NCBI GenBank assembly: GCA_019358895.1
Contig: JAHHIG010000001.1
Coordinates: forward strand, 62,001-126,000
Source: Tildeniella nuda ZEHNDER 1965/U140
GTDB taxonomy: Bacteria; Cyanobacteriota; Cyanobacteriia; Leptolyngbyales; Leptolyngbyaceae
Direction: 5' to 3'
Length of the DNA: 64,000 bases
The translations under genes were made by a program, and so were the position numbers. Below are positions 16,728 to 34,208 of the stretch, one piece after another. Within the stretch, counting starts at the first letter, position 1; every line of letters begins with the position of its first letter. Below the pieces are notes generated by a model. It did no database searches. It saw nothing but the letters and a program-made list of their open reading frames with translations, and was not told the DNA's origin.

Positions 16728-17732
16728 CTAGACTCTAGCCGCAATCTTGGCTTCCGTCGCCGTTAGGCGTTCATAGGTTGCCCGCATTTTTAAACCTGTC
16801 AAGACCTGGAATAAGCCCGTACCGTTGGTCGAACCAGGATATTCACGGTGATGCAGCAGTAGTTCTGTCAGTTCGCCGCTGTACTTAACCGATGTCTTGC
16901 TAAGGTGCTGCTCAATGTAGATGACTTCTTCGAGCTTGTCGAACTGTCCATCAACTTCTAGTACCGAAACGCTATGACCGTAATAAACATCCGGTCCATA
17001 GTGCATTTTGATGCCGGGATAGGAGCAGGTGAGCTTGCGACCACAAGGAACCCAGTCGATCGTAGAGCCTTCGTCGAACAAATAGGCAGGCTCAAACCCT
17101 GCCACACCATCGCGTTGAATCATTTGGACACGTAGCACCTTCCGCTCTTTATCGTCTTTGATCAGTTCGGTCGGCAAGACCTGAATCACCACATCCGCAA
17201 ATTCTTTTTGCGGGTCAATGTACGCCTTGAAGTCAGGGCGACGAGAATTAATGGCTGCTAACACGTCCTCATAGGTATGTCCGCGTTCGGACATATCGCG
17301 CTGAATCTTCCACGCAATTTTTACTTCGTCACTAATGTCGAGGTAAACGCTGAAGTCGAGCAGACTACGGACACGTTCATCATACAGAGGGTGCAAGCCT
17401 TCAATCACCACGATGTGGTTAGGCGAAACCCCTTCAGGCGGGTCGATCAGACCCGTTTCATGGTTGTAAATCGGCTTGTTGATCACTGCACCATGTTTGA
17501 GCGCTTTGATCTGCTCATACATGAGATCAAAGTTATTTGCCCGTGGGTCGAGGGCAGTGATCCCTGTCTCTTTGCGCTGCTTCCGATCCAGACTGTGGTA
17601 GTCGTCCAGGCAGATGACCGTTACGAAATCTTCCCCAAACAAATCGGTTAGTCGGCGCAGAAAGGTGGACTTACCGCACCCGGAATCTCCGGCAACGCCG
17701 ATCAGAACCACGCGGTCTGGCTTACTGGTCAT
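16728..17732 (-). CDS. prk: Phosphoribulokinase
   Basis: A 334-residue Calvin-cycle enzyme that phosphorylates ribulose 5-phosphate to the RuBisCO substrate, using ATP. The P-loop GVAGDSGCGKST (12-23) carries Cys19, and CLDDYHSLDR carries Cys41. These are the residues that form the dark-inactivating disulphide under thioredoxin and CP12 control. A second pair occurs in the WVPCGRKLTC segment. VIEGLHPLYDERVR (about 130-143) is the family segment with the catalytic-site region. The cyanobacterial length and start are normal. It is divergent from petH, with 631 bases between. Confidence 0.97.
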   Translation of the reverse strand: MTSKPDRVVLIGVAGDSGCGKSTFLRRLTDLFGEDFVTVICLDDYHSLDRKQRKETGITALDPRANNFDLMYEQIKALKHGAVINKPIYNHETGLIDPPEGVSPNHIVVIEGLHPLYDERVRSLLDFSVYLDISDEVKIAWKIQRDMSERGHTYEDVLAAINSRRPDFKAYIDPQKEFADVVIQVLPTELIKDDKERKVLRVQMIQRDGVAGFEPAYLFDEGSTIDWVPCGRKLTCSYPGIKMHYGPDVYYGHSVSVLEVDGQFDKLEEVIYIEQHLSKTSVKYSGELTELLLHHREYPGSTNGTGLFQVLTGLKMRATYERLTATEAKIAARV

Positions 17733-19605
<1,873 letters not shown>

Positions 19606-19640
19606 CGATCGACGACGGCAATCATTCGCCATGCCGACAA

Positions 19641-19673
19641 AGCAGATGGATCTGTAGATCCGTCTGCTTTTTT
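19641..19673 (+). terminator. Intrinsic terminator of petH
   Basis: The stem AGCAGATGGATC (19641-19652) pairs with GATCCGTCTGCT (19657-19668) with one T-G wobble and a TGTA loop, followed by six T residues. It lies 36 bases after the petH stop. Confidence 0.9.
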
Positions 19674-20094
19674 ATTTTGCTTGAGTAAAATTGCTCAAAG
19701 CAGCAGCCCGTTTTGTTGATTGCGTATGCTCACCCTCAGCAAGGCTGGGTCTGTCAGCGATCAGGAGAACCCTTTCTTGCGCTTAGATGCGATCGTGAAC
19801 ATTGGTTCAAAAGTCTGAAAACCCTGTCCTGAAAGGCTTTAAGAACAGCAAGTCAGATCTACAGCTTAGCTCGTAGTGAGCCATAACAGGATTCATAGCA
19901 TCAAAATCTACGCCAAGTGCATTACCTTTTACGGTGAAATTGGGCTGGCGGCAGCAGGCGATTCTTACGTTACATCCGGTAATATTTGTGCGGTTTGTGC
20001 CCTGTCATTCTATGGGGTACCGAGCCAGTGAATCTTACAGTGAGTAGGGATACTATGAATAAAACGTCATTAACAATGATTGAATCTTGATTTA
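19674..20094. other. Intergenic region between petH and HU
   Basis: This region lies between the petH terminator and the HU promoter candidate. Frames in it are short and without protein character. I see nothing further. Confidence 0.4.
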
Positions 20095-20125
20095 TTGCTC
20101 CATCTGCAAATAGCTGAACTATAAT
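20095..20125 (+). promoter_or_regulatory. Candidate promoter of the HU gene
   Basis: A perfect -10 box TATAAT at 20120-20125 lies 41 bases before the HU start, with a weak TTGCTC at 20095-20100 (19-base spacing) as a possible -35. The boxes suggest a sigma-70-type promoter. Confidence 0.45.
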
Positions 20126-20166
20126 CACGGCACACATTTGAATCAACAATACTAAGGTCTCACGCC

Positions 20167-20505
20167 ATGAACAAGAGTGAATTAGTGGACGCGATCGCAG
20201 CAAAGGCATCAATTACCAAGAAAGATGCGGATGCAGTACTGAGTGCGGCAGTCGATGCAATTATCGAAGCGGTCTCCGCTGGCGAGAAAGTGACCCTGGT
20301 CGGATTTGGCACGTTTGAAGCCCGCCAGCGTCAAGAGCGCGAAGGACGCAACCCCAGCACAGGCAAGCCGATTAAGATTCCTGCAACCACTGTACCCGCC
20401 TTCTCGGCTGGCAAGTTGTTTAAGGAAAAGGTCGCTCCAGCCAAAGAGGAGAAAGCAGAAAAAGAGGAGAAAGCGACTAAGACAAAAGCGAAAGCGAAGA
20501 AGTAA
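20167..20505 (+). CDS. hup: HU-family DNA-binding protein with Lys-rich tail
   Basis: A 112-residue nucleoid protein. Residues 1-92 are a complete HU fold: MNKSELVDAIAAKASITKKD at the start, GFGTFEARQRQEREGRNPST including the beta-arm (RNPSTGKPIKIPA) and FSAGKLFKEKV. The last 20 or so residues are an added Lys/Glu/Ala tail (KEEKAEKEEKATKTKAKAKK), as in several cyanobacterial HUs. It bends DNA and condenses the chromosome as a dimer. It is a single gene with its own promoter candidate. Confidence 0.95.
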   Translation: MNKSELVDAIAAKASITKKDADAVLSAAVDAIIEAVSAGEKVTLVGFGTFEARQRQEREGRNPSTGKPIKIPATTVPAFSAGKLFKEKVAPAKEEKAEKEEKATKTKAKAKK

Positions 20506-21373
20506 CCACTTGATCGCCTACTTAGCGCGACTGTCTGCTCACAGATTGCCCCGTACCGCTGGTAAGAAGGCGTTGTGTGCTTGCTGTTCCATTGCTTAGG
20601 CGCTCAAACTTTTTTGCAACCATGGTGTTTTGAGTCCGGGCAGGTTGATCGATCGCCACAGTGTCAAGCCAGAGGCGAACGTAGTCTGCCCTTCTAAACT
20701 TGCTAAAGCTCTACAGGTAGGCTGAATCTGTAAGCTCCTTGCTTGCGCACAGGGATCGATTCATGGCGTAGCGGAGAGGGATTCAGTTGAGTGCTTCGGT
20801 GTCCTCTCGATCCGAAGTGTAGGGCAACCTGATGAGCGAACAATCTTCTCTAATCATCGCTAGCACACAAGAAGCGATACCTCTTGCCATTTACTTTGGA
20901 ACTATTTCTCGCCCGGTGCGGTCAGTGGGGATGAGTGCGGACGATGCTTGGGTGACGTTGTGTTCCGAAAACTTGTTCTCGATCGCACTGTTCGGTGCCA
21001 GCAACTTATCGATGCCAGCAACTTAGCTCAATGTTTCTACCAGGGCGCTCTGCATGGGAAGGGTCTGTCTCGTCGCAGTGTAGCGATCGCCCACTGAAGG
21101 CACGCGTTAGCACTGAACAGGTAGGCGCTACACTTTCAACGTTGAGTCAGTCACGATCGCATAGAGGTCAAAGCGGACTCAACATTTAGGCAAAGTTCGT
21201 TTGGACATTCATCAGTAGCCCGCCACTGCGTTAGTTTTACAAATTGCGCTGGATGCATCAGAATGGGTAGGCAAACAAGCGCCATCGAGTTTAGTCGTCT
21301 CTCCGTTCACCTGGATTAAAGTCTGAATCCAGTTCCCTGTAAACTTTTTGCCGTTTTAGTGCCAGGAGCAGTC
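20506..21373. other. Long intergenic region after HU
   Basis: 868 bases without a convincing gene. A plus-strand frame at 20832-21026 (64 codons) shows no known motif and ends in a short repeated GCCAGCAACTTA segment (20997-21022), so I do not call it. The region has several HIP1-like GCGATCGC sites and looks like decayed sequence. It must include the promoter of the Tic22-like gene. Confidence 0.4.
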
Positions 21374-22171
21374 ATGAAATCATTGGTTCGCTGGAGTGCA
21401 ACCGCTGGGCTAGTTGGAAGCGCTCTTATGGGGTCGTTTTTAGCAGGTACCTTGCAGGCGCTTGCCATTCCCCAAGAGCAAATTATCCAGAAGCTTCGCC
21501 CCGTCCCTGTCTTTACGATCGCTAACGCGCAGGGTGCCCCTCTAGTTGCGTCTCCTCCCACTGGGCAGAAAGGAGCAGCGGTCGCAGGGGTATTCATTAA
21601 TCAGAAAGATGCTCAGACCTTTCTGGACAACCTTAAGACTAAAAACCCGGATTTGGCAAAGAACGTCAAGGTGGTACCCGTCTCGTTAGCTGAGGTCTAC
21701 CAACTCAATCAAACCAACAAAGGTAAGCCTGAACAGCTCGACTTTGCTTACGTGCCGTCCAAACAGCAAGTTGATACGGCTGTTTCGCTGTTAAAGCAAC
21801 AAGGTGGACAACAGCCGCAGCAATTTAACGGCACACCGCTCTTTGTTGCCCGTGGTGGCAAGGACAAAGGGTATTTGACGATTCAGCAAGATGGCAAATC
21901 AATTATTCCTATGTTCTTTAACAAGGAAGAATTGCAGAGCCTGCTCGATCGCTTTAAGCAACAGCAGCCCGCTATGGCATCAAGCATTGAAGTGCAGGTG
22001 CTTAACCTGGAAGGGTTGATGGAGGTCTTACGGACAAAGGATGATCCCCAACTGAACCAGATTGTGCTGGTGCCGCCGCAGCAATCGATCGAATTTATCA
22101 AATCGATCGCGCCGCCGCAAGGCGCACCCGGAACCAACAAACCCGCAGCGGCTCCTGCTCCCAAAAAGTAG
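21374..22171 (+). CDS. Tic22-like periplasmic chaperone
   Basis: A 265-residue protein starting MKSLVRWSATAG, after the ribosome site AGGAGC (21363-21368). Residues 1-32 form a signal peptide with the likely cleavage after ALA. The body has the Tic22 pattern: repeated beta-strand motifs VPVFTIANAQGAPLV, VAGVFINQKDAQTFLDNL and IPMFFNKEELQSLLDRF. A Pro/Ala tail ends it. Cyanobacterial Tic22 is a periplasmic or lumenal factor for outer-membrane biogenesis, related to the chloroplast import component. It stops 17 bases before prmC and may be co-transcribed. Confidence 0.88.
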   Translation: MKSLVRWSATAGLVGSALMGSFLAGTLQALAIPQEQIIQKLRPVPVFTIANAQGAPLVASPPTGQKGAAVAGVFINQKDAQTFLDNLKTKNPDLAKNVKVVPVSLAEVYQLNQTNKGKPEQLDFAYVPSKQQVDTAVSLLKQQGGQQPQQFNGTPLFVARGGKDKGYLTIQQDGKSIIPMFFNKEELQSLLDRFKQQQPAMASSIEVQVLNLEGLMEVLRTKDDPQLNQIVLVPPQQSIEFIKSIAPPQGAPGTNKPAAAPAPKK

Positions 22172-22188
22172 GTCGTGCGGAGGGATGA

Positions 22189-23151
22189 GTGATCACTAGA
22201 GAAGACTCAGACCCGCTCTCGCCTCAGTCGTTGAGGCGAGAGTTTTGTGTATCTGGGCAAAGACTCTGGCAATGGCGAGAAGCTGCCCGTCAACAGGCGA
22301 TCGCTGCCGATATTCCCCTTGAGGAAGTAGACTGGCTGCTGCAAGACTTGGCTGGGCTAGACCGACCATCGCTGCGGCTAGAGACTTTTAAAGATAAGGC
22401 AGAAATTCTGCTCCGCTTGCCCCTCTCTGAACTTACAACACTCTGGGAACACCGTATCCGCGATCGTGTTCCAGTGCAGTATCTCACTGGCGTTGCCCCC
22501 TGGAGACAGTTTTTACTTAACGTTTCACCCGCAGTACTCATTCCCCGACCTGAGACGGAATGCTTGATCGACTTGGCGATCGCGGCAGTACCCCCCACAC
22601 CCCACACCCCACGCCCCACACCCCACCTCTCCCACCAACACTGGGCAGATCTAGGCACGGGCAGCGGCGCGATCGCGATCGGTCTAGCAACAGCCTTTCC
22701 GGCAGCAACCATTCACGCAGTCGATTGCAGTGCAGCAGCGTTGGCGATCGCGCAGTCCAACGCCCAAACGCTTCACCTGACAGAGCATATTCAATTTTAT
22801 GAAGGTTCCTGGCTACAGCCATTGGTTCACCTCAGAGGCAGGTTAAGCGGCATGGTTGCCAATCCACCCTATATTCCCAGCGAGATGGTGCCAGCACTAC
22901 AGCCAGAAGTTGCCCGACACGAACCTCATCTGGCGCTAGACGGGGGCGCTGACGGACTCGATTGTCTTCGACACTTGGTCGCAGTGGCACCAGAGTATTT
23001 GCAGTCTGGTGGCATTTGGCTAGTAGAAACGATGGCAGGACAGGCGATCGCAGTCGCCGCTTTGCTGCAACAGCAGGGAAACTACGATCAGATTCAGATC
23101 CACCCTGATTTAACAGGCATTGATCGGTTTGTTCTAGCCTATCGCTGTTGA
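22189..23151 (+). CDS. prmC: Release factor glutamine N5-methyltransferase
   Basis: A 320-residue SAM-dependent enzyme that methylates the GGQ glutamine of RF1/RF2. The GTG start at 22189 has GGAGGGA just upstream. An N-terminal helical domain precedes the Rossmann domain: RFG-type start VLIPRPETE, ADLGTGSGAIAIGLA (SAM loop) and the catalytic NPPYIP (about 224-229). Odd feature: between the REP/TE strand and the SAM loop the protein contains a Pro/Thr/His run (about 136-148) encoded by ACACCCC heptamers at 22597-22631, which lengthens a loop without breaking the frame. Confidence 0.94.
   Translation: MITREDSDPLSPQSLRREFCVSGQRLWQWREAARQQAIAADIPLEEVDWLLQDLAGLDRPSLRLETFKDKAEILLRLPLSELTTLWEHRIRDRVPVQYLTGVAPWRQFLLNVSPAVLIPRPETECLIDLAIAAVPPTPHTPRPTPHLSHQHWADLGTGSGAIAIGLATAFPAATIHAVDCSAAALAIAQSNAQTLHLTEHIQFYEGSWLQPLVHLRGRLSGMVANPPYIPSEMVPALQPEVARHEPHLALDGGADGLDCLRHLVAVAPEYLQSGGIWLVETMAGQAIAVAALLQQQGNYDQIQIHPDLTGIDRFVLAYRC
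22597..22631. repeat. Heptamer repeats within prmC
   Basis: Tandem ACACCCC units (one with ACGCCCC) run for about five copies. They are in frame and encode PTPHTPRPTPH-like residues in the methyltransferase. Confidence 0.75.
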
Positions 23152-23180
23152 GCAGCCGTCACTGAAGAGTCTAAAAGGCT

Positions 23181-25631
23181 TTAGACATTGCTCTGTTGCA
23201 ACCCGTTAACGCGATCGATCGCCTCTTTTTGCAGCGCTTCTTTACCCTGGGCTTTATAGAGATCTGCTGCCTTCTGTAAATTGCTGATTGCCCCAGAACG
23301 ATTACCCAACGCCTGTTGTGCCAGCCCAAGATTGTAGTAAGCATCGGCATAGTCTGGCTTCCGACGAATCGCCCGGTTGTAGTCTCCGATCGCGGCTCTA
23401 GTATTGTTAAGCGCAAGTTGGGCATTCCCTCGGTTATTGTAGGCACCCGCTAGAATCGGCGCGGGCGGTTTGAGCGCGATCGCCTGGGCATAATCCCGCA
23501 TCGCACTGTCATAGTCACCTTTTTTAGACCGTGCATTTGCCAAATTGATGTGCGCTTCTGCCGAACTGCCATTTAGCGCAACGGCTTGATTGCCTGTCTC
23601 CAGTGCTTTGTCATAGTTCTGGCGATCGTAATAGGCATAGCTAAGATTGCTGTAGAGTACGGCAGACTTAGGATCGAGTTTCAACGCTTGCTCATAGTCT
23701 CTGATCGCGGCACCTGTGTCACCCAGTCGGTGATGGGCAACCCCGCGATTGATATACGCCGACACATCATTAGGGTTTTTCTCAATGGCTTGGTCATAGT
23801 CAGCGATCGCGGCTTTGTTGTCGCCTGCCTGCGCTTTTCTTCGCCCCTCACTGTTGAGACGCTGGGCAGCAGCAGGATCAGCAGGTGTTTGTCCAAATTT
23901 GAGCCACCCCGGACGACTGGACGATGGCAGAATCGCGGCTACCAGCCCAATAATTGCCGCCAGGAGGATCGCCGGAATGATCAGAGCTTGATAGTTAGAA
24001 GCAGAGCGTCGAACTCTATCCATAAGATTTGGCTTCGCGTCAGGCAGAATAGGAAGCGGTTCTTCTCGTACAGGTACGGGGTTCAGCGGTGTTTCTGCTA
24101 GCGACGCTGGTTCTAAAGGGGATGTCACTGGTTCGTTCATGTTGAACAACCGTTGCAGCACTGCCTCTTTAGCCCGTGAGTCGTCGTGAGAAGCCCGTGA
24201 GTCGTCGTGAGAAGCCCGTGAGTCGTCGTGAGAAGGCGGTACAGCCGTTGGGAGCGGTGCAGCAGATGGTGGTGGCGATGAGCTGAACGCTTTTGGTGCG
24301 GGCGAAACTGGACTGGACTGGCTGGTAGCGCCAGCATCTGGGGTGTTTGCGGTTTCTGACTCTGGTTTTTCACTCAAGTCAGCTACAAATTGCTCTGTTT
24401 GGGTGGTGATTTGCGCTTCGATGGTTCTAGTGTCATCATCCCCTAAGTGCAGTGTCTGCTGCAAGCGTTGGAGCATCGTGCGATCGCCCTCTCCCAACGG
24501 AGACTGACGCTGCATTGCCCATAGTAAAACCTGCTGGTACAGCGCCTTTTGACGTTGATGCTCGACTAGAGATGGTGCGATCGTCATCACGGCAACATCA
24601 CGATCATTCAGGTACAAGGCGTGCTGCAACTGTTTCAAGGTCTGACGCACTTGCGGGTGGTCAGTAGCGTGCGATCGCGCGTGTTCTGCCACCTGTTCCT
24701 GATACAGCGTCACACGTTGACGATACTCCCGTGTGGGACGTAACACTTGTGCCTCTAGCGCCTCAGCCTCCTGCGGCGACACGCCTAAACGCTGGCGCAT
24801 CTCCTCCAAGAGTGGTAACCCTTCCAGCACAGGAGCACCTGACACATCGATCGCGATCGATGCCGTCTCCAGAACTTTGCGATAATGCAGTCGTGGGTCG
24901 TTGTTTGGCACCTCTAACAGAGGCATCTGAGCCGTTTCGGCACTGCCGTGCAGTTGGGGCTGTAGCGTGGGGGCTGCCACTTGCAGCTTTTGAGCAGCAT
25001 AGTGATGCAAATCAGCCGCCGTCACGATACCGTCATCATCAGCATCGGCAGCACTACTCTCAATACCTTCTGCCAGATAACGTGGATACGTCCAAACATC
25101 AAGTGCTTCAGGTGTTAGCGCTGGTCGGCTAACGTTTGAAGCCGCTAAGATGACGCGCCCCGCACCACCGAAAGGAGCCGTCAGATCAGACATTGGCTCT
25201 GCTACAGCAGACTGATCCAGCAGTGGCGGGCTGTAACGATTCAAAATGAAAACTTGCTGTTTGGCAGGGCTACTGTTCATTGATTCCAGCACAGCGCTGG
25301 CAGGTATCGTTTGCGCTTTAACGATCGCACCCTGATCATCCAGTTTAGTGCTGGGTGTCGCAAAATACAGTTTGCCATCCGCATCGGGCAAGAGGTAGCC
25401 ACAAAACAGAAACACCAGTTGATCATCACTGCGCCGCTGCTTAAAGAACAGCTCAATGGTTTCCTGCATCTCTTGCAATGGGCGATCGCATAAGCACTGT
25501 ACAGACTCAAACTGAAAGCGCGGCTGCTTCAGCAATCGCTTGATCAGTTCCACGTCTTTTTGCGCGTCGGGCAAGGGGTCTAAACCCGTTGGATACCGAC
25601 TCACTCCAATTAGCAGCGCTACCCTGGACAT
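23181..25631 (-). CDS. Degenerate caspase-like protein with membrane helix and TPRs
   Basis: An 816-residue protein starting MSRVALLIGVSRYP, the opening strand of caspase-like (C14) domains; the frame is open nine codons further. The catalytic His position reads FCGYLL (Tyr79 in place of the His of GHG). The Cys position reads FILNRYSPP (Tyr133/Ser134 in place of DCCHSG), so canonical protease activity should be absent. An EF-hand-like loop DADDDGIVTAAD follows near 205. Next come a helical region, a linker with three SHDDSRA heptads, one membrane helix (about 560-580) and about six TPRs to the end. This resembles orthocaspases with a Tyr/Ser-type altered dyad known in cyanobacteria. The TPRs probably bind partners. 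Confidence 0.85.
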   Translation of the reverse strand: MSRVALLIGVSRYPTGLDPLPDAQKDVELIKRLLKQPRFQFESVQCLCDRPLQEMQETIELFFKQRRSDDQLVFLFCGYLLPDADGKLYFATPSTKLDDQGAIVKAQTIPASAVLESMNSSPAKQQVFILNRYSPPLLDQSAVAEPMSDLTAPFGGAGRVILAASNVSRPALTPEALDVWTYPRYLAEGIESSAADADDDGIVTAADLHHYAAQKLQVAAPTLQPQLHGSAETAQMPLLEVPNNDPRLHYRKVLETASIAIDVSGAPVLEGLPLLEEMRQRLGVSPQEAEALEAQVLRPTREYRQRVTLYQEQVAEHARSHATDHPQVRQTLKQLQHALYLNDRDVAVMTIAPSLVEHQRQKALYQQVLLWAMQRQSPLGEGDRTMLQRLQQTLHLGDDDTRTIEAQITTQTEQFVADLSEKPESETANTPDAGATSQSSPVSPAPKAFSSSPPPSAAPLPTAVPPSHDDSRASHDDSRASHDDSRAKEAVLQRLFNMNEPVTSPLEPASLAETPLNPVPVREEPLPILPDAKPNLMDRVRRSASNYQALIIPAILLAAIIGLVAAILPSSSRPGWLKFGQTPADPAAAQRLNSEGRRKAQAGDNKAAIADYDQAIEKNPNDVSAYINRGVAHHRLGDTGAAIRDYEQALKLDPKSAVLYSNLSYAYYDRQNYDKALETGNQAVALNGSSAEAHINLANARSKKGDYDSAMRDYAQAIALKPPAPILAGAYNNRGNAQLALNNTRAAIGDYNRAIRRKPDYADAYYNLGLAQQALGNRSGAISNLQKAADLYKAQGKEALQKEAIDRVNGLQQSNV
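24171..24233. repeat. 21-bp triplicate in the caspase-like gene
   Basis: Three identical 21-base units (starting AGCCCGTGAGTCGTCGTGAG, at 24171, 24192 and 24213) encode SHDDSRA three times in the linker. Identity of the copies suggests recent expansion. Confidence 0.9.
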
Positions 25632-26118
25632 CTCATTACTTCTGGTTTCCCTCAGCACACATTAAGCGGCACACATGAAATTGCCAGACCAGTTAGGGTT
25701 AATCTCCTAACCTGATCCGATCGACTCCAAACGCCAGTTTGCACTCGCGCTCTCAAGTCGCATCCAGGCGCTGCAAGAGTCAGTTGCCACCTGTCAAATG
25801 AACCTATGTAAGGATACTGAATCCTTTTCCAAATGAACTATTAATTACGGATTCCCTCAGCAAAGCGGTGTAAAGCATTAAAGCGTCATCCAGCAGCGAG
25901 TGTCATCCTGCCTTTTCGGTGTTGTGACGGATTTAGACGCTCAACTTCAAGCGTTACACTCAAAGAAACGCCTGGTTCCCTGTAAAGGCAACTGTGCTGG
26001 GGCGGTAGAGCTGCCATAGCTTACTACTTGCAAAAGCACAGGCGCTTATTTCACAAGCCGTTTAGCCATCTGCCTTTTACGCTCTGCTGTCTGACACTCA
26101 ATACATGCGATCGCCAAC
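25632..26118. other. Divergent intergenic region
   Basis: 487 bases between the caspase-like and the C39-like genes, which are transcribed away from each other. It is moderately AT-rich, with no RNA gene or repeat that I can support. Promoters for both are expected here. Confidence 0.4.
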
Positions 26119-27171
26119 ATGCTGCTAGAGATCATCGCTACATTACTGCTGGGTGGTCTGCTCTTTCGCTGGGGTATGCGTATTGGCAAGCTGTTTCTAC
26201 GTAAAGGCGCGACAGCAAACGATTTATTCAAAGGTAGAACCTCCCTTTCGCTGCTGTTTTTAGGGCTTTACGTTGGGCTGATTGTGCTGGCACTGAATGT
26301 GCCTCAAATGCAGTTCCTACCAGTCGAGTGGCGTGTCTATGGTATGCGGATCACCTGGACGATTATGCGTGCCGTCCTGCTAGGGTTTTGTGGGCTGGCA
26401 TACATCGTCAGTTGGCAGACGGCACGCGTACAGGTGATTGCTGTAGCGCTGATTGGCATCATGGGAATCACTGGATTCAGCGCTTCCGAAGCCTATTTTC
26501 TAGCTCCGATTTACACTACGCTTTACAACAACTTGCAGCCCAATGGGGTGTATAAGCAAACCTCCATGAGTAGCTGCGCGCCTGCGGCTTTGGCAACCGT
26601 GCTGCGACGATGGCAGCTTGACGCTACGGAGTCGGGTGTTGCGCGGCTTGCAGGCACCAGTCGTCTAGGCACCTCAATGCCGCAGTTAATTGTCGCTGCC
26701 CATGAGCTAGGGATGGATGGGTTGGAACTAGCGCCTACCTGGGAGCAAATGCAACGGATTAACCGTCCTGGCGTGCTGGGTGTTTGGTTGCTGGATGGCG
26801 GGCGAAAACTGCCTCATGCAGTCGCTCTGCTAGAAATGAGCAATGAACTGGTTGCGATCGGTGATCCAGCGCGTGGCAAAATTTACACCCTCAACCAAAC
26901 CCAGTTTGCTGAAATTTGGCGAAAGCAGTACGTACCGATCTTCCGAGCCAGCGATCGCACCCTTACGTCAGAACAGGCAGCCGACTATCTACAGCGCCTC
27001 GGCTATCTCAGCCCACCCTCAAAGGATCTCGGCAAGGCAATCCGCCGCTTTCAAACGGCTGTTGGCATTCCTATTACAGGCGAACTCAATATTGAAACAG
27101 TACTCTCGCTAACAGGTTCCTTTTTGGAAGGTGTGCCGACGCTGACACCAAGTCAGCTCCCTCCACAGTAG
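26119..27171 (+). CDS. Membrane-anchored C39-like cysteine peptidase with peptidoglycan-binding domain
   Basis: A 350-residue protein. Residues 1-135 contain four hydrophobic helices. The domain that follows has the C39 layout: Gln147 and Cys153 in KQTSMSSCAPAALATVL, His233 in LPHAVALL and Asp249 in IGDPARGK, so the papain-like triad looks intact. C-terminal residues about 280-335 (LTSEQAADYLQRLGYL...AIRRFQTAVGIPITGELN) are a PGB_1 peptidoglycan-binding repeat. C39 domains normally cut double-glycine leaders in peptide exporters; here there is no ABC module, so it is a stand-alone, membrane-bound and cell-wall-facing enzyme. Its substrate is unknown. Confidence 0.85.
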   Translation: MLLEIIATLLLGGLLFRWGMRIGKLFLRKGATANDLFKGRTSLSLLFLGLYVGLIVLALNVPQMQFLPVEWRVYGMRITWTIMRAVLLGFCGLAYIVSWQTARVQVIAVALIGIMGITGFSASEAYFLAPIYTTLYNNLQPNGVYKQTSMSSCAPAALATVLRRWQLDATESGVARLAGTSRLGTSMPQLIVAAHELGMDGLELAPTWEQMQRINRPGVLGVWLLDGGRKLPHAVALLEMSNELVAIGDPARGKIYTLNQTQFAEIWRKQYVPIFRASDRTLTSEQAADYLQRLGYLSPPSKDLGKAIRRFQTAVGIPITGELNIETVLSLTGSFLEGVPTLTPSQLPPQ

Positions 27172-27228
27172 GGTGAGCAGCCCTTACAGCGGTTCTCATT
27201 TGGAGTGCAGTACAAGTTTTAGGTTTTA

Positions 27229-27265
27229 AGGCAGAAGGCAGAAGGCAAGAGGTAGGCAGGAGGAA
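27229..27265. repeat. AGAAGGC heptamer tract
   Basis: Three GCAGAAG units followed by degenerate GCAAGAGGTAGGCAGGAG lie in the spacer after the C39-like gene. They belong to the same family as the tract at 28481. Confidence 0.65.
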
Positions 27266-27448
27266 AGCTGTAACTCTTTTTGCTTCTGCTTCAAACGCTG
27301 CACACTTTAGAACAGACAGAGCGATCGCTTGAGCAGATTCTGAGAAAATCCTTCTTGAGCAGGAGCATATGAGCAATGGTTAAAGCTATACCTAAGGACT
27401 GCGAAGCATTTTTAAAACTCTTATCACTTCATACAACTCTTTTTTGTG

Positions 27449-27856
27449 ATGGCATTAATGACGAAACCACTTTTTCAAGGAAGACAACAGGTCAAGACTG
27501 GATATATTCTGGTTGTTGACGACATGGCAGATAACTGCTTTTTACTCAAAGCAATCTTAGAAGGAGAAGGCTACAGCGTTGAAGTTGCCAGCAACGGCAT
27601 GGCTGCGTTAGCAAAAGCAGAGGCATTGCCGCCTAAGCTCATGCTGCTGGATGTGATGATGCCTGACATGAATGGTTATGAAGTCACTCAGCGCGTGCGA
27701 CAGAGCACCAAACTGGCAGATTTGCCCGTGGTACTGATCACAGCACACGGTAAAGAAAGTGCAACGATCGGAAAAGCGGCTGGCGCAAACGACTGCATCT
27801 CCAAACCCTTCGATTTTGACGAGTTGATTCGGCAAGTTCAGATTTACACCCTTTAG
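27449..27856 (+). CDS. Single-domain response regulator
   Basis: A 135-residue protein consisting of one CheY-like receiver domain. The acidic pocket is in ILVVDDMADN, the phosphoacceptor Asp in LMLLDVMMPDMNGYE, the Thr in VVLITAHG and the Lys in CISKPFDFDEL. It has no output domain, so it acts through protein contacts or as a phosphate relay. Three start codons lie close together (GTG 27446, ATG 27449, ATG 27458); none has a strong ribosome site. No kinase is adjacent; the nearest is the receiver-kinase at 49.1 kb. Confidence 0.92.
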   Translation: MALMTKPLFQGRQQVKTGYILVVDDMADNCFLLKAILEGEGYSVEVASNGMAALAKAEALPPKLMLLDVMMPDMNGYEVTQRVRQSTKLADLPVVLITAHGKESATIGKAAGANDCISKPFDFDELIRQVQIYTL

Positions 27857-28010
27857 TCATGCGGCGCTATCAACATCGTTTCCTAAGTAAGAAACTTTAG
27901 ATCACACACTTTTCAGAGAAAAATCACGTTGAGGCTGCGCTGTCAGTCACGCGACTCCTCTTAAAGCTGTTCCATATTGTAGCTATGTTTACAAAAGGAA
28001 CGCCCCCTAT

Positions 28011-28178
28011 ATGCAACTTCTACCTCGTACACAAGAAACACAATCTGCTGAATTTGCCTCCAATGTTGAATCAACTGCTTCCAGATGTGCACGTAAACCG
28101 AAATTGACAATGGTTTGGATGACTGAGTCAATCGGCGATCGTACCCGTCTCGTTGCCCGCTGGACGACACAAGACTAA
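28011..28178 (+). CDS. Conserved small protein (55 residues)
   Basis: An ATG-started frame ending in the run RKPKLTMVWMTESIGDRTRL and then VARWTTQD. The C-terminal half, with MVW and VARW, resembles a small conserved hypothetical family that I recall from cyanobacteria. A strong terminator 25 bases downstream, and a spacer free of other genes, support its being a real short transcript. No function is known. The opposite-strand frame here is a shadow. Confidence 0.6.
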   Translation: MQLLPRTQETQSAEFASNVESTASRCARKPKLTMVWMTESIGDRTRLVARWTTQD

Positions 28179-28201
28179 GGGCACATTCAACTTAACGCAA
28201 A

Positions 28202-28241
28202 CAAAAATCCCCTCGCAGTAACGGCTGAGGGAATTTTTGTT
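28202..28241 (+). terminator. Intrinsic terminator, possibly bidirectional
   Basis: CAAAAATCCCCTC pairs with GAGGGAATTTTTG (one G-T) across a 12-base loop (GCAGTAACGGCT). T-rich sequence follows, and A-rich sequence precedes it, so it may work in both directions. Confidence 0.85.
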
Positions 28242-28317
28242 TGCTATTTTTTCGACAATTTGGCTGATTTTTTCGCTGCTGCCAGAAGAAGGGAGTAGAC
28301 GTTAACTGGTAAGCAAA

Positions 28318-28449
28318 ATGGTCAGACTCATTGGCACAGGGCTACTTCTGGTTGGCATAGTGGTTGTGCTAATCAACCCGATGCTCGTTCAAATCTGGGT
28401 AGCCGCGATCGCGTTAGGGCTACTGTCACACTGGGTTACTCAAAATTGA
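28318..28449 (+). CDS. Possible small membrane protein (43 residues)
   Basis: ATG 28318 to TGA 28447-28449. Almost the whole product is hydrophobic: helix one about residues 4-19 (LIGTGLLLVGIVVVLI) and helix two about 24-37, with short polar ends. Small two-helix proteins of this kind are common in cyanobacteria but hard to prove. There is no clear ribosome site. It lies between a terminator and the heptamer tract before pdhB. Confidence 0.4.
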   Translation: MVRLIGTGLLLVGIVVVLINPMLVQIWVAAIALGLLSHWVTQN

Positions 28450-28480
28450 CATTGAGCGGTGGAGGATGGATAAAGGAGAT

Positions 28481-28620
<140 letters not shown>

Positions 28621-28660
28621 TCCTGTAAAATGACAGACATTGCCGCAACTAGAGGAACCA

Positions 28661-29644
28661 ATGGCAGAAACACTTTTCTTTAATGCCCTGCGCGAAGCGA
28701 TCGACGAAGAAATGGAGCGCGACCCAACCGTAATGGTCATGGGGGAAGACGTAGGGCATTACGGCGGTTCCTATAAGGTGACGAAGGATCTGTACAAGAA
28801 GTATGGTGATTTGCGGTTGTTGGATACGCCGATCGCCGAGAATAGCTTTACTGGCATGGCTGTAGGAGCCGCGATGACCGGTCTGCGACCCATCATCGAA
28901 GGGATGAACATGGGCTTTTTGCTGCTGGCATTTAACCAGATTGCCAACAATGCTGGAATGCTGCGCTATACGTCTGGCGGCAATTTCAAGATTCCGATGG
29001 TGATTCGAGGCCCTGGTGGTGTGGGTCGGCAACTTGGCGCAGAACATTCGCAGCGGTTAGAGACGTACTTCCAGGCAGTGCCGGGGCTAAAAATCATTGC
29101 GTGTTCCACTCCCTACAATGCGAAAGGGCTGCTGAAGTCGGCGATTCGTGACAACAACCCCGTGCTGTTTTTTGAACACGTCCTGCTCTACAATCTGAAG
29201 GAAGATTTACCAGAGGGCGAGTATCTGTTGCCTCTAAATAAGGCAGAAGTGGTGCGATCGGGCGAAGATGTCACGATCATCACCTACTCCCGGATGCGGC
29301 ATCACGTGATGCAGGCAGTGAAGACCCTAGAAAAAGATGGCTACGATCCAGAAGTGATCGATCTGCTGTCGCTGAAGCCACTGGACTTTGACACGATCGG
29401 CGCATCCATTCGCAAAACCCATCGTGTGATCATTGTGGAAGAGGCAATGCGGACGGGCGGCATTGCGGCAGAAGTGATTGCGTCGATTAACGATCGCCTG
29501 TTTGACGAGTTGGATGCACCCGTTTTGCGGCTCTCATCTCAAGACATTCCCACCCCTTACAATGGCGGTTTGGAAAATCTGACGATCGTCCAGCCCCAAC
29601 AAATTGTCGAAGCCGTCCAGAAAATGGTGGCGCTCAAAGTTTAA
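28661..29644 (+). CDS. pdhB: Pyruvate dehydrogenase E1 beta subunit
   Basis: A 327-residue E1-beta starting [14 protein letters not shown] after the ribosome site AGAGGA (28651-28656); a TTG seven codons upstream is not needed. It pairs with E1-alpha to decarboxylate pyruvate, passing the acetyl group to E2 on the way to acetyl-CoA. Typical stretches are [52 protein letters not shown] (about 127-143) and the C-terminal domain with [13 protein letters not shown] and [10 protein letters not shown]. The alpha and E2 genes are not in the window. The heptamer tract lies in its leader or promoter region. Confidence 0.96.
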
Positions 29645-29655
29645 GCTGGACGCTG

Positions 29656-29880
29656 ATGAAAGCAGATCACGACCAACTCATTCATTTCGCTTTGTGCCTT
29701 AACAATGAGGGCTACAAAGCTTCACTAGAAGTCGGAAAACTGTATCGCATGATTGCTGATGAGCAAGCTACAGCACATGGGTTGGTACGGATTGTGGATG
29801 GAAGCGGTGAAGATTATGCTTTTTCGACGAATCGTTCCATCCAATCCCATTACCGCAAAATGTGGAAGCAGTTCTGCTAA
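29656..29880 (+). CDS. Conserved hypothetical protein (74 residues)
   Basis: It starts 11 bases after the pdhB stop. The sequence is soluble, with an N-terminal helix (MKADHDQLIHFALCLNNEGYK...) and a beta-rich middle ending ATAHGLVRIVDGSGEDYAF. It resembles short cyanobacterial proteins seen beside toxin-antitoxin genes, but I cannot assign a family with certainty. It is on the same strand as the DUF4258/YgiT-like pair 32 bases further on and could be co-transcribed with it. Confidence 0.65.
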   Translation: MKADHDQLIHFALCLNNEGYKASLEVGKLYRMIADEQATAHGLVRIVDGSGEDYAFSTNRSIQSHYRKMWKQFC

Positions 29881-29911
29881 AAGCATCTTAAGCCTGTAAG
29901 AGAATAGTCCC

Positions 29912-30244
29912 ATGACTTCTCTCATTGAAGACATCCGCCAGAAAATTGCTGATGAGCGATATGAGTTTTCCAAACATGCTGTTGATCAGTCAATCTTGAG
30001 ACAAATCCAGGTTCAAGAAGTCAGAGAAACGATCGCCAAGGGTCAGGTTATTGAGCATTATCCAAACGATAAGTATGGTCCGAGTTGTCTTATTAGTGGC
30101 GTGACTCAAACCCAACGGAGACTTCACATTCAATGTAGTTATCCGCCTCGTCCCTTGCTGAAAATTATCACTTTATACGAACCTGACCCGCAGCGATGGA
30201 ATGCTGACTTCACACAAAGGAGGAACCGCAATGATGAGTTATGA
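29912..30244 (+). CDS. DUF4258 protein, putative toxin
   Basis: A 110-residue protein. The N-terminal IRQKIADERYEFSKHAVDQS (His in the SKHA motif) and the core VQEVRETIAKGQVIEHYPND, SCLISG and LHIQCS...LKIITLYEPDP match DUF4258, a small RelE-like fold often encoded with an antitoxin. Such proteins are predicted mRNA interferases, but the activity is not established for this family. The stop overlaps the next gene's start by 14 bases, the common arrangement of a two-gene module. Confidence 0.85.
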   Translation: MTSLIEDIRQKIADERYEFSKHAVDQSILRQIQVQEVRETIAKGQVIEHYPNDKYGPSCLISGVTQTQRRLHIQCSYPPRPLLKIITLYEPDPQRWNADFTQRRNRNDEL

Positions 30245-30455
30245 GCAAGAAACGTTGGTTGAAAAACAAGTGACTTACACGCTCCAACTGAATGGGCAAG
30301 TCTTTGTCATTGAGAATGTACCTGCTCGCATCAATGAAGAAACTGGAGAACAGTTTTTTTCTCCATCAACGGTAGAGCATTTGCAGCAAATTATCCTGAC
30401 TCGACAAGAGCCAGATCGCTTTGCAGAAGTCCCTGTATATAACTATGGGACTTAA
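30231..30455 (+). CDS. YgiT/MqsA-like antitoxin lacking its zinc cysteines
   Basis: A 74-residue protein from ATG 30231 (or 30234), with a perfect AAAGGAGGAA ribosome site at 30216-30225. The order of elements follows the YgiT-type zinc-finger proteins: a strand TYTLQLNGQVFVIENVPA, then the place where CxxC should be (INEETGEQFF), then STVEHLQQIIL. All cysteines of the usual CxxC pairs are missing, so the finger cannot hold zinc. It overlaps the DUF4258 gene, which supports a toxin-antitoxin reading. It has no separate HTH DNA-binding domain. Confidence 0.78.
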   Translation: MMSYEQETLVEKQVTYTLQLNGQVFVIENVPARINEETGEQFFSPSTVEHLQQIILTRQEPDRFAEVPVYNYGT

Positions 30456-30495
30456 TCACGATCACTGTAGTGACGCGACTTGTCGAATTCAACTA

Positions 30496-30520
30496 TAAAA
30501 AAGCCTCTCCGAAGAGAGGC
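30496..30520 (-). terminator. Intrinsic terminator of the seven-repeat membrane protein gene
   Basis: On the minus strand GCCTCTC-TTCG-GAGAGGC, a seven-pair stem with a stable UUCG loop, is followed by TTTTTT. It lies about 30 bases after the stop of the gene at 30549 and may also stop the toxin-antitoxin transcript arriving from the other side. Confidence 0.93.
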
Positions 30521-30548
30521 GATGGTGTGAGCCTTTTAAGGAATGGGA

Positions 30549-33500
30549 TTAGACACCTTTGACGGCGATCGCGCCTGCTAAGGCAGCAGCACCAGCCGAC
30601 ACAAGTGCAGTGCCAAACAACCACCAGGCAGCACTGGCAGCCGCTTTTTGGGTTTCCTTTACCTGCTTCTGCGCCTGATATTTGACCTCTTCCAGTCGTC
30701 GTTGTGCTTCGCCTTGCAGACGCTCTGCACGACGCAATACACTGCTGCGGGCATCTTCGACCTGATCGATGATGTGATTTGCTTGCTCTTCGGAAATATC
30801 ATCACGAGAACTCATCACGGCGACCAGCGTTTCGCGGTTGAAACTGCCAAGCCGATCGCGCATTGCGTCAAAGCCAGCCTGGGGATCGTAGAACATGGTG
30901 CGAACGTCGCGCTTGATGCCGTCGTAGTTGAGTTCGGGGCGATCGAGCGCGTTCAGGTAATCCCGAATGCGCGCCAGAATGCCATCGATCACCGACTGAA
31001 TGCGGTTCTGGATCTTTTGAATCTGAGCCGATACCTGATCGCGTACAGCCAACACCTGATCGACAATCCGTTCCGCTTCTGCTGTAGATATATCCTGGCG
31101 TTGAGAGAGCAGCGCCACGATGGTTGACCGATCGACCTGGCTGAGGCGATCGCCCAAGCTGCTGGCTCCTGAGCGGGGATCATTCAGCAGCAGTTGCAGA
31201 TCGCGCTTAATGCCGTCAGGGTTGAGTTCATCCTTGTTGGTTTGGAGCAAGTAGCTTTCCACGTTGGTCTGGAAATCTTGCACACGCTGTTTGGTGCGCG
31301 ATGCCAGACGACGCGGTGAGCGGACAATACGACGAATCGCTTCCTGCACCTGATCGATAGACTGGTTGACTTGCTCTTCGGTGAGATCATCTCGTTGGCT
31401 AAGCAGTTTGACCAGCGTTTCACGATCGACCTGCGAGAGGCGTTGCCGTAGCGCGATCGTGCCCTGTTTTGGATCATCCAGCAGTGTCTTCAAGTCGCTC
31501 TGAATGCCATCAGGATCAAGCTCCGATAGGTTAGTGCGTCGCAGATAGTCGGCGATCGCGGTACTCACCTGGTCATACTGATCCTTCGCTTTATCCGCCA
31601 CGATTTGCGGTGCATGGAGGACGCTATACCGCACGTCTTCAAGCTGAGTGATGATGCGATCGGCTTCCTCGGGTGTCATATCCTGCCGCTGAGCGAGAAG
31701 CTGCACGAGCGTATCACGATCGACCTGGCTGAGGCGCTCACGCAGGGCATACCGTCCCGCCTGCGGATCATCTAACAGCAGTCTAAAGTCGCGCTTAATG
31801 CCGTCGGGGTTGAGTTCTGACTTGTTGGTATTTCGCAGATAGTTTTCGACGCGATCGCGCACTGCCAATGCCTCTGCCTTCACGCGCTCTTGAGATTCAT
31901 GCGCTGTACTTAGAACATTGTCACGAGTGCTTTCAAGTTGGCTGACGATGCGATCGGCTTCTTCGGGTGTGGTGTCCGGTCGCTGCGCGAGTATGGCGAT
32001 CAGCGTATTGCGGTCAAATTGGCTGAGTCGAGACTGCAAGGCATCAAAACCAGCCTCGCGATCGTCCAGCAGCAGACGAAAATCTCGCTGAATACCGTCA
32101 GGGTTGAGTTCATCTTTGCCAGTCGATCGCAGATAATTTTCTACTCGACCGCGAACATCTTTGGACTGCTCATCAGTTGCCGCTGCCTGTACAGTGCCAA
32201 GCACCGAAACGCGAATCGTTTCGAGCTGATCCGCGATTTCCGACACTCTTGCAGGTGTGAGGTCACTGCGTTGCGACAGCACCTCCACAAAATAGGCGCG
32301 ATTCAGTTGTTCCAGTTGGCGTTGCACCGTCACTGGGTCGGCTTCAGGATCGTAGATGGCATCCCTGAACTCGGTTTGCAGCGTTTCGCGGTTGAAGTGC
32401 CAGTAGTAGGTGTTCAACAGGTAGTTTTCAGCATCTGCCTTGACCGTGTTGAAGGGTGCTCCTGGTACCTTTTGAGCAATCTGCTTCGTTGTATCGCTGA
32501 CTTTATCTTTGGCTGTCTGAAGCTGACCAAGAATTTTTTCGACGCTCAGATCAGACAAATCACCGCGTTGCAGCACTGTGCCCATGAGAGTCGTAAAGCC
32601 AAGCTGGAGCGCTTGACTGACTGGACTAACGTCTGCCTTGGGCGATTGTGCCAGTTGTCCTGATGATGCCAGACTTCTTTGCTGACGAACCTCTTCAGTC
32701 AGACGATCGATCTTGGCGTTTAGTTCGCTAGAGTTTAGCGCCTCAGGCTGAGCAGACTTGAGGTACTCCACCAACTCTGAGGTTGGGTCTTTCTTCTGAA
32801 ACTGGTTGACGACCGTTTGCCAAACCGATTCAAGCTGACCCACGACACGCTCAACATCTCGGCGGGAAAGATCGGTGCGGCTGCTCACCAAATTCATGAA
32901 GGTGGCGCGATCGATACTCCGCAGGCGATCGGCGATCTCTACTGGCGAACCACTACCCGCAATCTCTTTTAACTCTGGATCGTTGACCAATTTCTCAAAT
33001 TCGCCCCGGATCTTGGACATATCCAACCCTGCTGGGCGCAAAGCATCCAGATAATCCTCAATGGAATCCCGTACGCTGGCTGGGTCAAGCCCTGTACCCA
33101 GTTCTCGCCGGACGGCTGCTGCCGCTGCTTCTGCGGTTGAAACAACCTGACTGTTTACAGCTTTAGCTCCGAGAGCCGCGGTTGCCGTCCCGAAAATTGC
33201 TTGAAATCCTGACACGGCAGTATTCACGACCGAGCCAGCCAGAGAGCCAACAGTTAACGAACTAAATAAGACTAACAAAACGAAGTAAGCGCCCCAAATA
33301 ACAACGCCGACGATCGCGCCTAAGGCAGAACTGGTAATTAAACTCAGCTTCACCGCTAAGAGGCACGCCAGAAACAGCGCTACGCTAACTGTAAGCAGCG
33401 TCCATAGACCGACAGCAAAGCCAATTTTCTTGACTGTGCCGCCCAGACTGCCCGACTCATGGCTGTCAGAATCAGAATCATCGCTCGACGATCGCCCAAG

Positions 33501-33713
33501 GTACGAAATACCCGCTGCTACCGAGAGATTGGTAAGCAGTAATTGAAAAGCAAATGCCAGAACTAAACCTGCAATTAAGGCGATAAAAAATTGAGGTCCT
33601 GAGAAAACTAAAGCTGCCCTTTCCGGTGTACTGACTGCCCCATCCAAAGGCACCTGCGCCATCCATATCGGAAGGCGATCGAGATCCAACGCCATCCTAA
33701 AGTCATCAATCAT
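30549..33713 (-). CDS. Giant membrane protein with seven about 95-residue helical repeats
   Basis: 1054 residues. The N-terminal third has three hydrophobic helices (about 43-62, 97-122, 131-158), and one more lies at the end (about 1030-1050). Between them run seven repeats of about 78 conserved residues plus linker. The best copies follow YL..T...ELNPDGI.RD, then LLLDDP..G...L..RLSQ.DR.TL, then LL.QR.D.T.EEA.RI..Q.E..R..VL. Copies 3-6 are most alike; the first two and the last are diverged. It lacks a signal peptide cleavage site and known catalytic motifs. The repeats are probably helical and cytoplasmic or periplasmic depending on topology. It is related to uncharacterised cyanobacterial membrane proteins; I do not recognise a function. 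Confidence 0.82.
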   Translation of the reverse strand: MIDDFRMALDLDRLPIWMAQVPLDGAVSTPERAALVFSGPQFFIALIAGLVLAFAFQLLLTNLSVAAGISYLGRSSSDDSDSDSHESGSLGGTVKKIGFAVGLWTLLTVSVALFLACLLAVKLSLITSSALGAIVGVVIWGAYFVLLVLFSSLTVGSLAGSVVNTAVSGFQAIFGTATAALGAKAVNSQVVSTAEAAAAAVRRELGTGLDPASVRDSIEDYLDALRPAGLDMSKIRGEFEKLVNDPELKEIAGSGSPVEIADRLRSIDRATFMNLVSSRTDLSRRDVERVVGQLESVWQTVVNQFQKKDPTSELVEYLKSAQPEALNSSELNAKIDRLTEEVRQQRSLASSGQLAQSPKADVSPVSQALQLGFTTLMGTVLQRGDLSDLSVEKILGQLQTAKDKVSDTTKQIAQKVPGAPFNTVKADAENYLLNTYYWHFNRETLQTEFRDAIYDPEADPVTVQRQLEQLNRAYFVEVLSQRSDLTPARVSEIADQLETIRVSVLGTVQAAATDEQSKDVRGRVENYLRSTGKDELNPDGIQRDFRLLLDDREAGFDALQSRLSQFDRNTLIAILAQRPDTTPEEADRIVSQLESTRDNVLSTAHESQERVKAEALAVRDRVENYLRNTNKSELNPDGIKRDFRLLLDDPQAGRYALRERLSQVDRDTLVQLLAQRQDMTPEEADRIITQLEDVRYSVLHAPQIVADKAKDQYDQVSTAIADYLRRTNLSELDPDGIQSDLKTLLDDPKQGTIALRQRLSQVDRETLVKLLSQRDDLTEEQVNQSIDQVQEAIRRIVRSPRRLASRTKQRVQDFQTNVESYLLQTNKDELNPDGIKRDLQLLLNDPRSGASSLGDRLSQVDRSTIVALLSQRQDISTAEAERIVDQVLAVRDQVSAQIQKIQNRIQSVIDGILARIRDYLNALDRPELNYDGIKRDVRTMFYDPQAGFDAMRDRLGSFNRETLVAVMSSRDDISEEQANHIIDQVEDARSSVLRRAERLQGEAQRRLEEVKYQAQKQVKETQKAAASAAWWLFGTALVSAGAAALAGAIAVKGV

Positions 33714-34208
33714 ACGAATTTTCCTCGTGAACGCTCAACTGAAGCCGCCCTTAATCTGTAGAGAGCTGACACACCGTTTGAATCATGTCTCCCGTTGTAG
33801 ATAGAATCGCCGAGTGCGAGGCTCTGCTTCATCTCTCCTGAGGGTGAGGCGATCGTTCCCAAAGGGATGAAATGAGCCTGAGCGCAGAAAGCAGAGACTT
33901 GGGCATTGAAAATCAAAGCACACCGGATATTTTCTTCCTTGCGATTTTGAGAAAGCGTTTCTCTCGTTCGGGAATGTCACCCAGTGTGCTGTATTTGTAT
34001 TACAATACTACTTTTGTAGTATGAGCAAGTGCTTTGTGCGAAGAGGTTTGGGAAGCACAATCGTTTGTTGCCTGGATTGAAGCGCCTGGACTGAAGCGAA
34101 CGTCCATTAGCGGAAATCAGCAAAATCTAACGTTAACAGGTGGTGGTTAGCGTTGGGTTAACTGAATTGCTCGACACAAACCTCGCATCGACCGTTTTAG
34201 GAGGAATC
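33714..34208. other. Divergent intergenic region with palindrome
   Basis: 495 bases upstream of the repeat membrane protein and the ABC exporter. An 18-base perfect palindrome ATACTAC-TTTT-GTAGTAT at 34005-34022, preceded by the related GTATTACAATAC, could be an operator or a promoter element for the exporter. No gene is visible. An in-frame GTG at 34140 could extend the exporter but is less likely than ATG 34209. Confidence 0.5.

Follow-up and report, generated by a model that had tools for sequence, protein, structure and literature searches.

A pseudo-orthocaspase lineage with a membrane helix and TPR repeats in a cyanobacterial family

The minus-strand gene at 23181-25631 of the window, a 64,000-nucleotide stretch of Tildeniella nuda ZEHNDER 1965/U140 DNA, encodes a single-pass membrane pseudo-orthocaspase that is probably a non-proteolytic, membrane-tethered adaptor. 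Sequence comparison places it in a monophyletic lineage of pseudo-orthocaspases, distinct in its combination of p20 domain, membrane helix and TPRs.

The minus-strand frame runs through 816 amino acids with zero internal stops and the plus-strand frame is stop-rich; the coordinates in the first-pass annotation were right. The parts of the protein follow in the order caspase domain, EF-hand-like loop, helical region, linker, membrane helix and six TPRs, with the loop falling inside the caspase-fold domain as delimited here:

23181-25631, minus strand: pseudo-orthocaspase coding sequence, 816 amino acids plus stop, ATG start at 25631
GTG 27 bases upstream of the ATG at 25631, minus strand: alternative start candidate
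24903-25631, minus strand: caspase-fold domain, residues 1-243 (Pfam C14, AlphaFold, MALT1 match)
25395-25397, minus strand: Tyr79 (TAC) at the catalytic His position of GHG (alignments)
25233-25241, minus strand: Asn131-Arg132-Tyr133 in place of D-C-C, the last being the catalytic Cys (alignments)
25011-25046, minus strand: EF-hand-like loop DADDDGIVTAAD, residues 196-207
24357-24902, minus strand: helical region, residues 244-425, partly common to orthocaspases with the His-Cys (HC) dyad
23997-24356, minus strand: Pro/Ser-rich low-complexity linker, residues 426-545, the least conserved of all parts
24171-24235, minus strand: 21-bp perfect tandem repeat, 3.1 copies, in the linker coding region
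23928-23984, minus strand: the one transmembrane helix, at residues 550-568 (mean hydropathy 3.0)
23256-23846, minus strand: six TPR repeats, residues about 596-792 (Pfam)

The 21-bp repeat gives three copies of SHDDSRA in the window protein, where relatives have one DDSR copy. The first-pass annotation had called the EF-hand-like loop, membrane helix and six TPRs intact. All three are present, and the loop letters match the DxDxDG pattern of a putative calcium-binding loop; "intact" does not hold for the loop across the lineage, since Ala replaces the acid at position 12, the last one, in three close relatives (L045, L046 and L047). For the helical region, Foldseek returned no significant match over residues 244-430 and Pfam no family above cut-off; ENT, with an E-value of 0.00018 and a score below the cut-off, was taken as a chance match. 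Rfam had no matches over 17000-34000, PADLOC had none, and promoter and terminator scans gave matches on a par with those in shuffled sequence.

Membership of the orthocaspases, which have a p20 domain of caspase/hemoglobinase fold and lack a p10 family domain, is supported by both profile and structure. Pfam Peptidase_C14 matches residues 3-130 with an E-value of 2.3e-9 (37.7 bits against a cut-off of 21.4), and a sequence-profile search against solved structures gave marginal matches only. An AlphaFold model of residues 1-344, built from 18 homologues, has a mean pLDDT of 87.4 and a complete caspase fold; over residues 1-241 it matches MALT1 (Z 18.9, the highest of the fold matches, 2.7 A over 200 residues), and it also matches metacaspases and caspases. 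Alignments set the protein against as many as 91 HC orthocaspases of its own genome, its family and other cyanobacteria. The FSG-H-G of the HC forms aligns with FCG-Y-L, so that the catalytic His is replaced by Tyr79, and D-C-C-F-S-G aligns with N-R-Y-S-P-P, with Tyr133 at the catalytic Cys; both replacements had been read from the sequence in the first-pass annotation and were borne out. The S1-pocket Asp that precedes the catalytic Cys is Asn131 and the downstream S-G-A is gone. Of the two conserved S1-pocket Asp residues, which are typical of pseudo-orthocaspases without strictly defining them, the window protein has the first (Asp26) and not the second, the reverse of its split-gene relatives (first Asn, second Asp).

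We found no alternative His/Cys pair, which would have spoken for a protease, anywhere in the caspase domain: Cys occurs there at three positions (Cys46, Cys48 and Cys77), and all of the domain's His residues lie C-terminal to the EF loop. The intact His-Cys dyad of active orthocaspases is thus absent, and the Tyr79-Tyr133 (Y-Y) pair makes the protein a pseudo-orthocaspase as defined by substitution of at least one dyad residue (PMC6426788). With the dyad and an S1 Asp replaced and a caspase fold in the AlphaFold model, the alignments and the predicted structure together indicate that the fold is retained and the catalytic chemistry lost; protease activity is very unlikely on this evidence, as had been proposed at first reading.

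A search across the class covered 388 genomes, 42 from the window's family and about 346 others. Eighteen genomes gave matches of 434-527 bits and every other match was at or below 335 bits. All 18 carriers belong to the family (about 43% of its genomes) and none is among the other genomes searched; on this distribution the gene is dispensable or lineage-specific, a point that counts against the adaptor reading. In a maximum-likelihood tree computed without the dyad columns the 18 members lie on one side of a single branch with support 100/100. The deep branches of the tree are weak, and either the fused or the split form of the gene may have come first. Residues specific to the lineage include Tyr79 and Trp180, the latter a Trp in 17 of 18 members where HC forms carry Ser; a scan for conserved stretches took in nine members.

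Within the lineage the dyad has been lost to different degrees. Six split-gene species have Y-C and one has Y-Y; three fused-gene species have Y-S, Y-H and Y-Q, and two distant fused-gene species Y-I; the six species compared in the window's genus have Y-Y (four) or H-Y (two). The catalytic His position is Tyr in 16 of 18 members, and living relatives stand at successive stages, from Y-C through Y-S/H/Q/I to Y-Y. In sister species without the Cys, Tyr and His are exchanged by one T/C change (TAT or TAC versus CAT), as expected if catalytic constraint is absent. HC relatives show their strongest conservation in the His and Cys loops (0.89 versus 0.59 for the remainder), and both loops are still conserved in the Y-C group. 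Among members of the window's genus, conservation of the Cys loop is down to 0.37 versus 0.64, within the lowest 7% of eight-residue segments. The lineage thus shows a measured shift of constraint off the active site.

Selection was gauged by dN/dS from simple pairwise counting, and dS is high for some of the pairs. Estimates for the window's genus are 0.13-0.23 for the caspase domain, 0.12-0.18 for the helical region, 0.23-0.42 for the linker and 0.07-0.12 for the part from the membrane helix through the TPRs; the caspase domain is therefore near the neighbouring prmC (0.10-0.13) and below the linker. Pairs of Y-C relatives give 0.03-0.05 for the caspase domain. These coding sequences indicate a protein under purifying selection despite loss of caspase-type protease capacity, and the first-pass suggestion of a selected protein is supported by retention in 18 species together with the values for the caspase domain and the membrane-TPR part.

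Seven genomes of four genera carry the gene as two overlapping genes (L051-L057, in G016, G034, G019, G027, G018, G023 and G032), one for a caspase part of about 325-335 amino acids and one for a helical-TM-TPR part of about 517-574. The overlap is 4 bases (ATGA), 11 or 14, with an AGGGG-like purine-rich stretch ahead of the second ATG, and the pair is likely, from this arrangement, to be translationally coupled. We discarded programmed frameshifting as an explanation of the split, since the second gene lies at +1 or +2 by species and starts at a codon of its own behind the purine-rich stretch; its presence in this many genomes (seven) and genera (four) makes a sequencing error unlikely. The split pair of G016 adjoins prmC and Tic22-like genes, as does the fused gene in the window's genus, G010 and G030, and this shared neighbourhood supports orthology of the two forms. 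That the genes for the two halves are fused in some species and overlap tightly in others suggests that these halves act together and are tied to one function, and the natural two-protein split indicates which half to use as partner bait. In two genomes (L053, L054) the gene directly upstream of the split pair is DJ-1/PfpI-like. In the window, the product of the divergent neighbour at 26119-27171 combines a C39-peptidase-like part with an N-terminus of membrane type and weakly matches a bacteriocin ABC transporter peptidase region; this neighbour adjoins the pseudo-orthocaspase gene across the genus.

The window's own genome has eleven C14 matches, at least seven of them caspase homologues with an intact HC dyad, so that the first-pass question of whether an active orthocaspase is encoded elsewhere is answered, by sequence, in the affirmative. 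One HC paralogue (G000:C11:127159-128202) is 36% identical to the window protein over the p20 domain. The genome also holds a second pseudo-caspase of Y-C type (L007, G000:C28:109501-110196), with FSGYG and the Cys kept in DACRTE; two TAT-family relatives of 788 and 826 amino acids (L005 and L006, on G000:C2) with the HC dyad in GHG and DSCHSG; and, about 130 kb from the window gene, a short HC frame of 171 amino acids that ends soon past DCCFSGAF (L010, G000:C9:217652-218050), possibly a truncated paralogue.

In the adaptor reading the pseudo-p20 domain would be cytoplasmic, with the retained caspase fold serving as a protein-binding surface, and the flexible linker and one membrane helix would tether it to the six TPRs. 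The TPRs would lie across the membrane, on the side of the periplasm or the thylakoid lumen, where a second partner would bind them. The protein might connect or arrange proteins on the two sides of the membrane, or relay binding at the TPRs to the p20 domain. The topology is suggested by charge bias: in all 18 members the flank N-terminal to the membrane helix carries no less positive charge than the C-terminal flank, and in 16 it carries more, a bias that is modest in the window's genus (3-4 versus 2). The binding role is proposed from the general behaviour of TPRs, and any signalling is conjectural. A less likely reading is a transmembrane signalling module specific to this lineage: TPRs outside the cytoplasm would be the sensor and the dead caspase domain its cytoplasmic output, with the whole made from a single polypeptide or from two that are coupled in translation, and with successive steps of active-site loss kept in living species.

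The main rival would make the protein a decoy or heterodimer partner that binds an active orthocaspase paralogue at the membrane and tunes it. HC caspase homologues coexist with it in its own genome, the 36% identical one among them, and in six of six further genomes checked, and PMC6426788 offers precedents in inactive cFLIP-L for caspase-8 and the pseudo-metacaspase TbMC4 in the TbMC3 cascade. We nevertheless think this role unlikely. Three carriers (G021, G022 and G031) have distant caspase homologues only, with no close HC relative in the search; key positions of the substrate groove have been lost, which makes substrate mimicry improbable in the window's genus; and PMC6426788 makes the case that the pseudo-forms of cyanobacteria work separately from the active ones.

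Decay of a once active orthocaspase, retained by chance, would fit the stepwise erosion of the dyad and Cys loop and the absence of the gene from more than half of the family genomes, but is improbable for a frame that is open in 18 species, as one gene or two, with purifying selection on the caspase, helical and TPR parts, a conserved architecture, and a prmC and Tic22-like neighbourhood conserved across genera. Least credible is a hydrolase with a relocated nucleophile such as Ser134 or Cys77, two residues before the lost His. Of the six members compared within the genus, five have Cys77 (FCGY, FCGH, YCGH), yet one congener has Ser in its place (FSGY), the window protein has no His near Cys77, the Cys loop varies freely and one S1 Asp is Asn; we give this possibility very little weight.

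Pseudo-orthocaspases are common in cyanobacteria. They make up 8.6% of bacterial orthocaspases in PMC6426788, which gives the cyanobacterial forms as mostly YS and YN, rarely YA, FS or YY; the window protein, with Y-Y, a membrane helix and TPRs, differs in dyad and domains from the YN clade (Tyr-Asn, no further domains). NCBIfam NF047832 (caspase, EACC1-associated type) scores 83.5 bits against a cut-off of 140. The YS/YG TAT type, which includes SyOC (sll0148, a YG form), resembles the window protein in a p20 domain with Tyr for His, a lost Cys and presumed inactivity, but the window protein has no N-terminal twin-Arg extension, starting at the first strand with MSRVALL, and has a membrane helix and six TPRs. 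One TAT-type member matches it weakly, at 31 bits across 82 residues. None of this type was found in the window's own genome; an FSGYG/LDTxYT protein occurs in four of six family members checked, three of which show a TAT-like N-terminus, and in several genomes checked the TAT type (FSGYG, LDTSYT/LDTGYT) coexists with the lineage as a separate gene. The first-pass statement that such forms have no assigned function is partly outdated, in that SyOC knockout makes Synechocystis more tolerant of H2O2 (PMC7889975), though SyOC is of a different type.

Other known forms share some of its features. HC orthocaspases such as G000:C11:127159-128202 have the EF-hand-like loop and the start of the helical region in common with the window protein, but keep the HC dyad and SGA motif and fall outside its lineage in the tree. 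Alphaproteobacterial FS pseudo-orthocaspases likewise have a pseudo-p20 followed by TPRs, but with a Phe-Ser dyad and in another phylum (PMC6426788). Among 473 cyanobacterial orthocaspases, PMC8283722 counts 37 pseudo-forms with a membrane helix and few TPRs (two TPR entries among the pseudo-forms), a likeness in the helix behind the peptidase domain and the rare TPR. In the literature as available to us we found no description of a lineage that combines a p20 domain with a membrane helix and six TPRs, or of its split form; single members may figure in the surveys' supplementary lists, where overlap is possible. Pseudo-orthocaspases are already described as a kind, and the membrane-plus-repeat lineage is a further variant of them.
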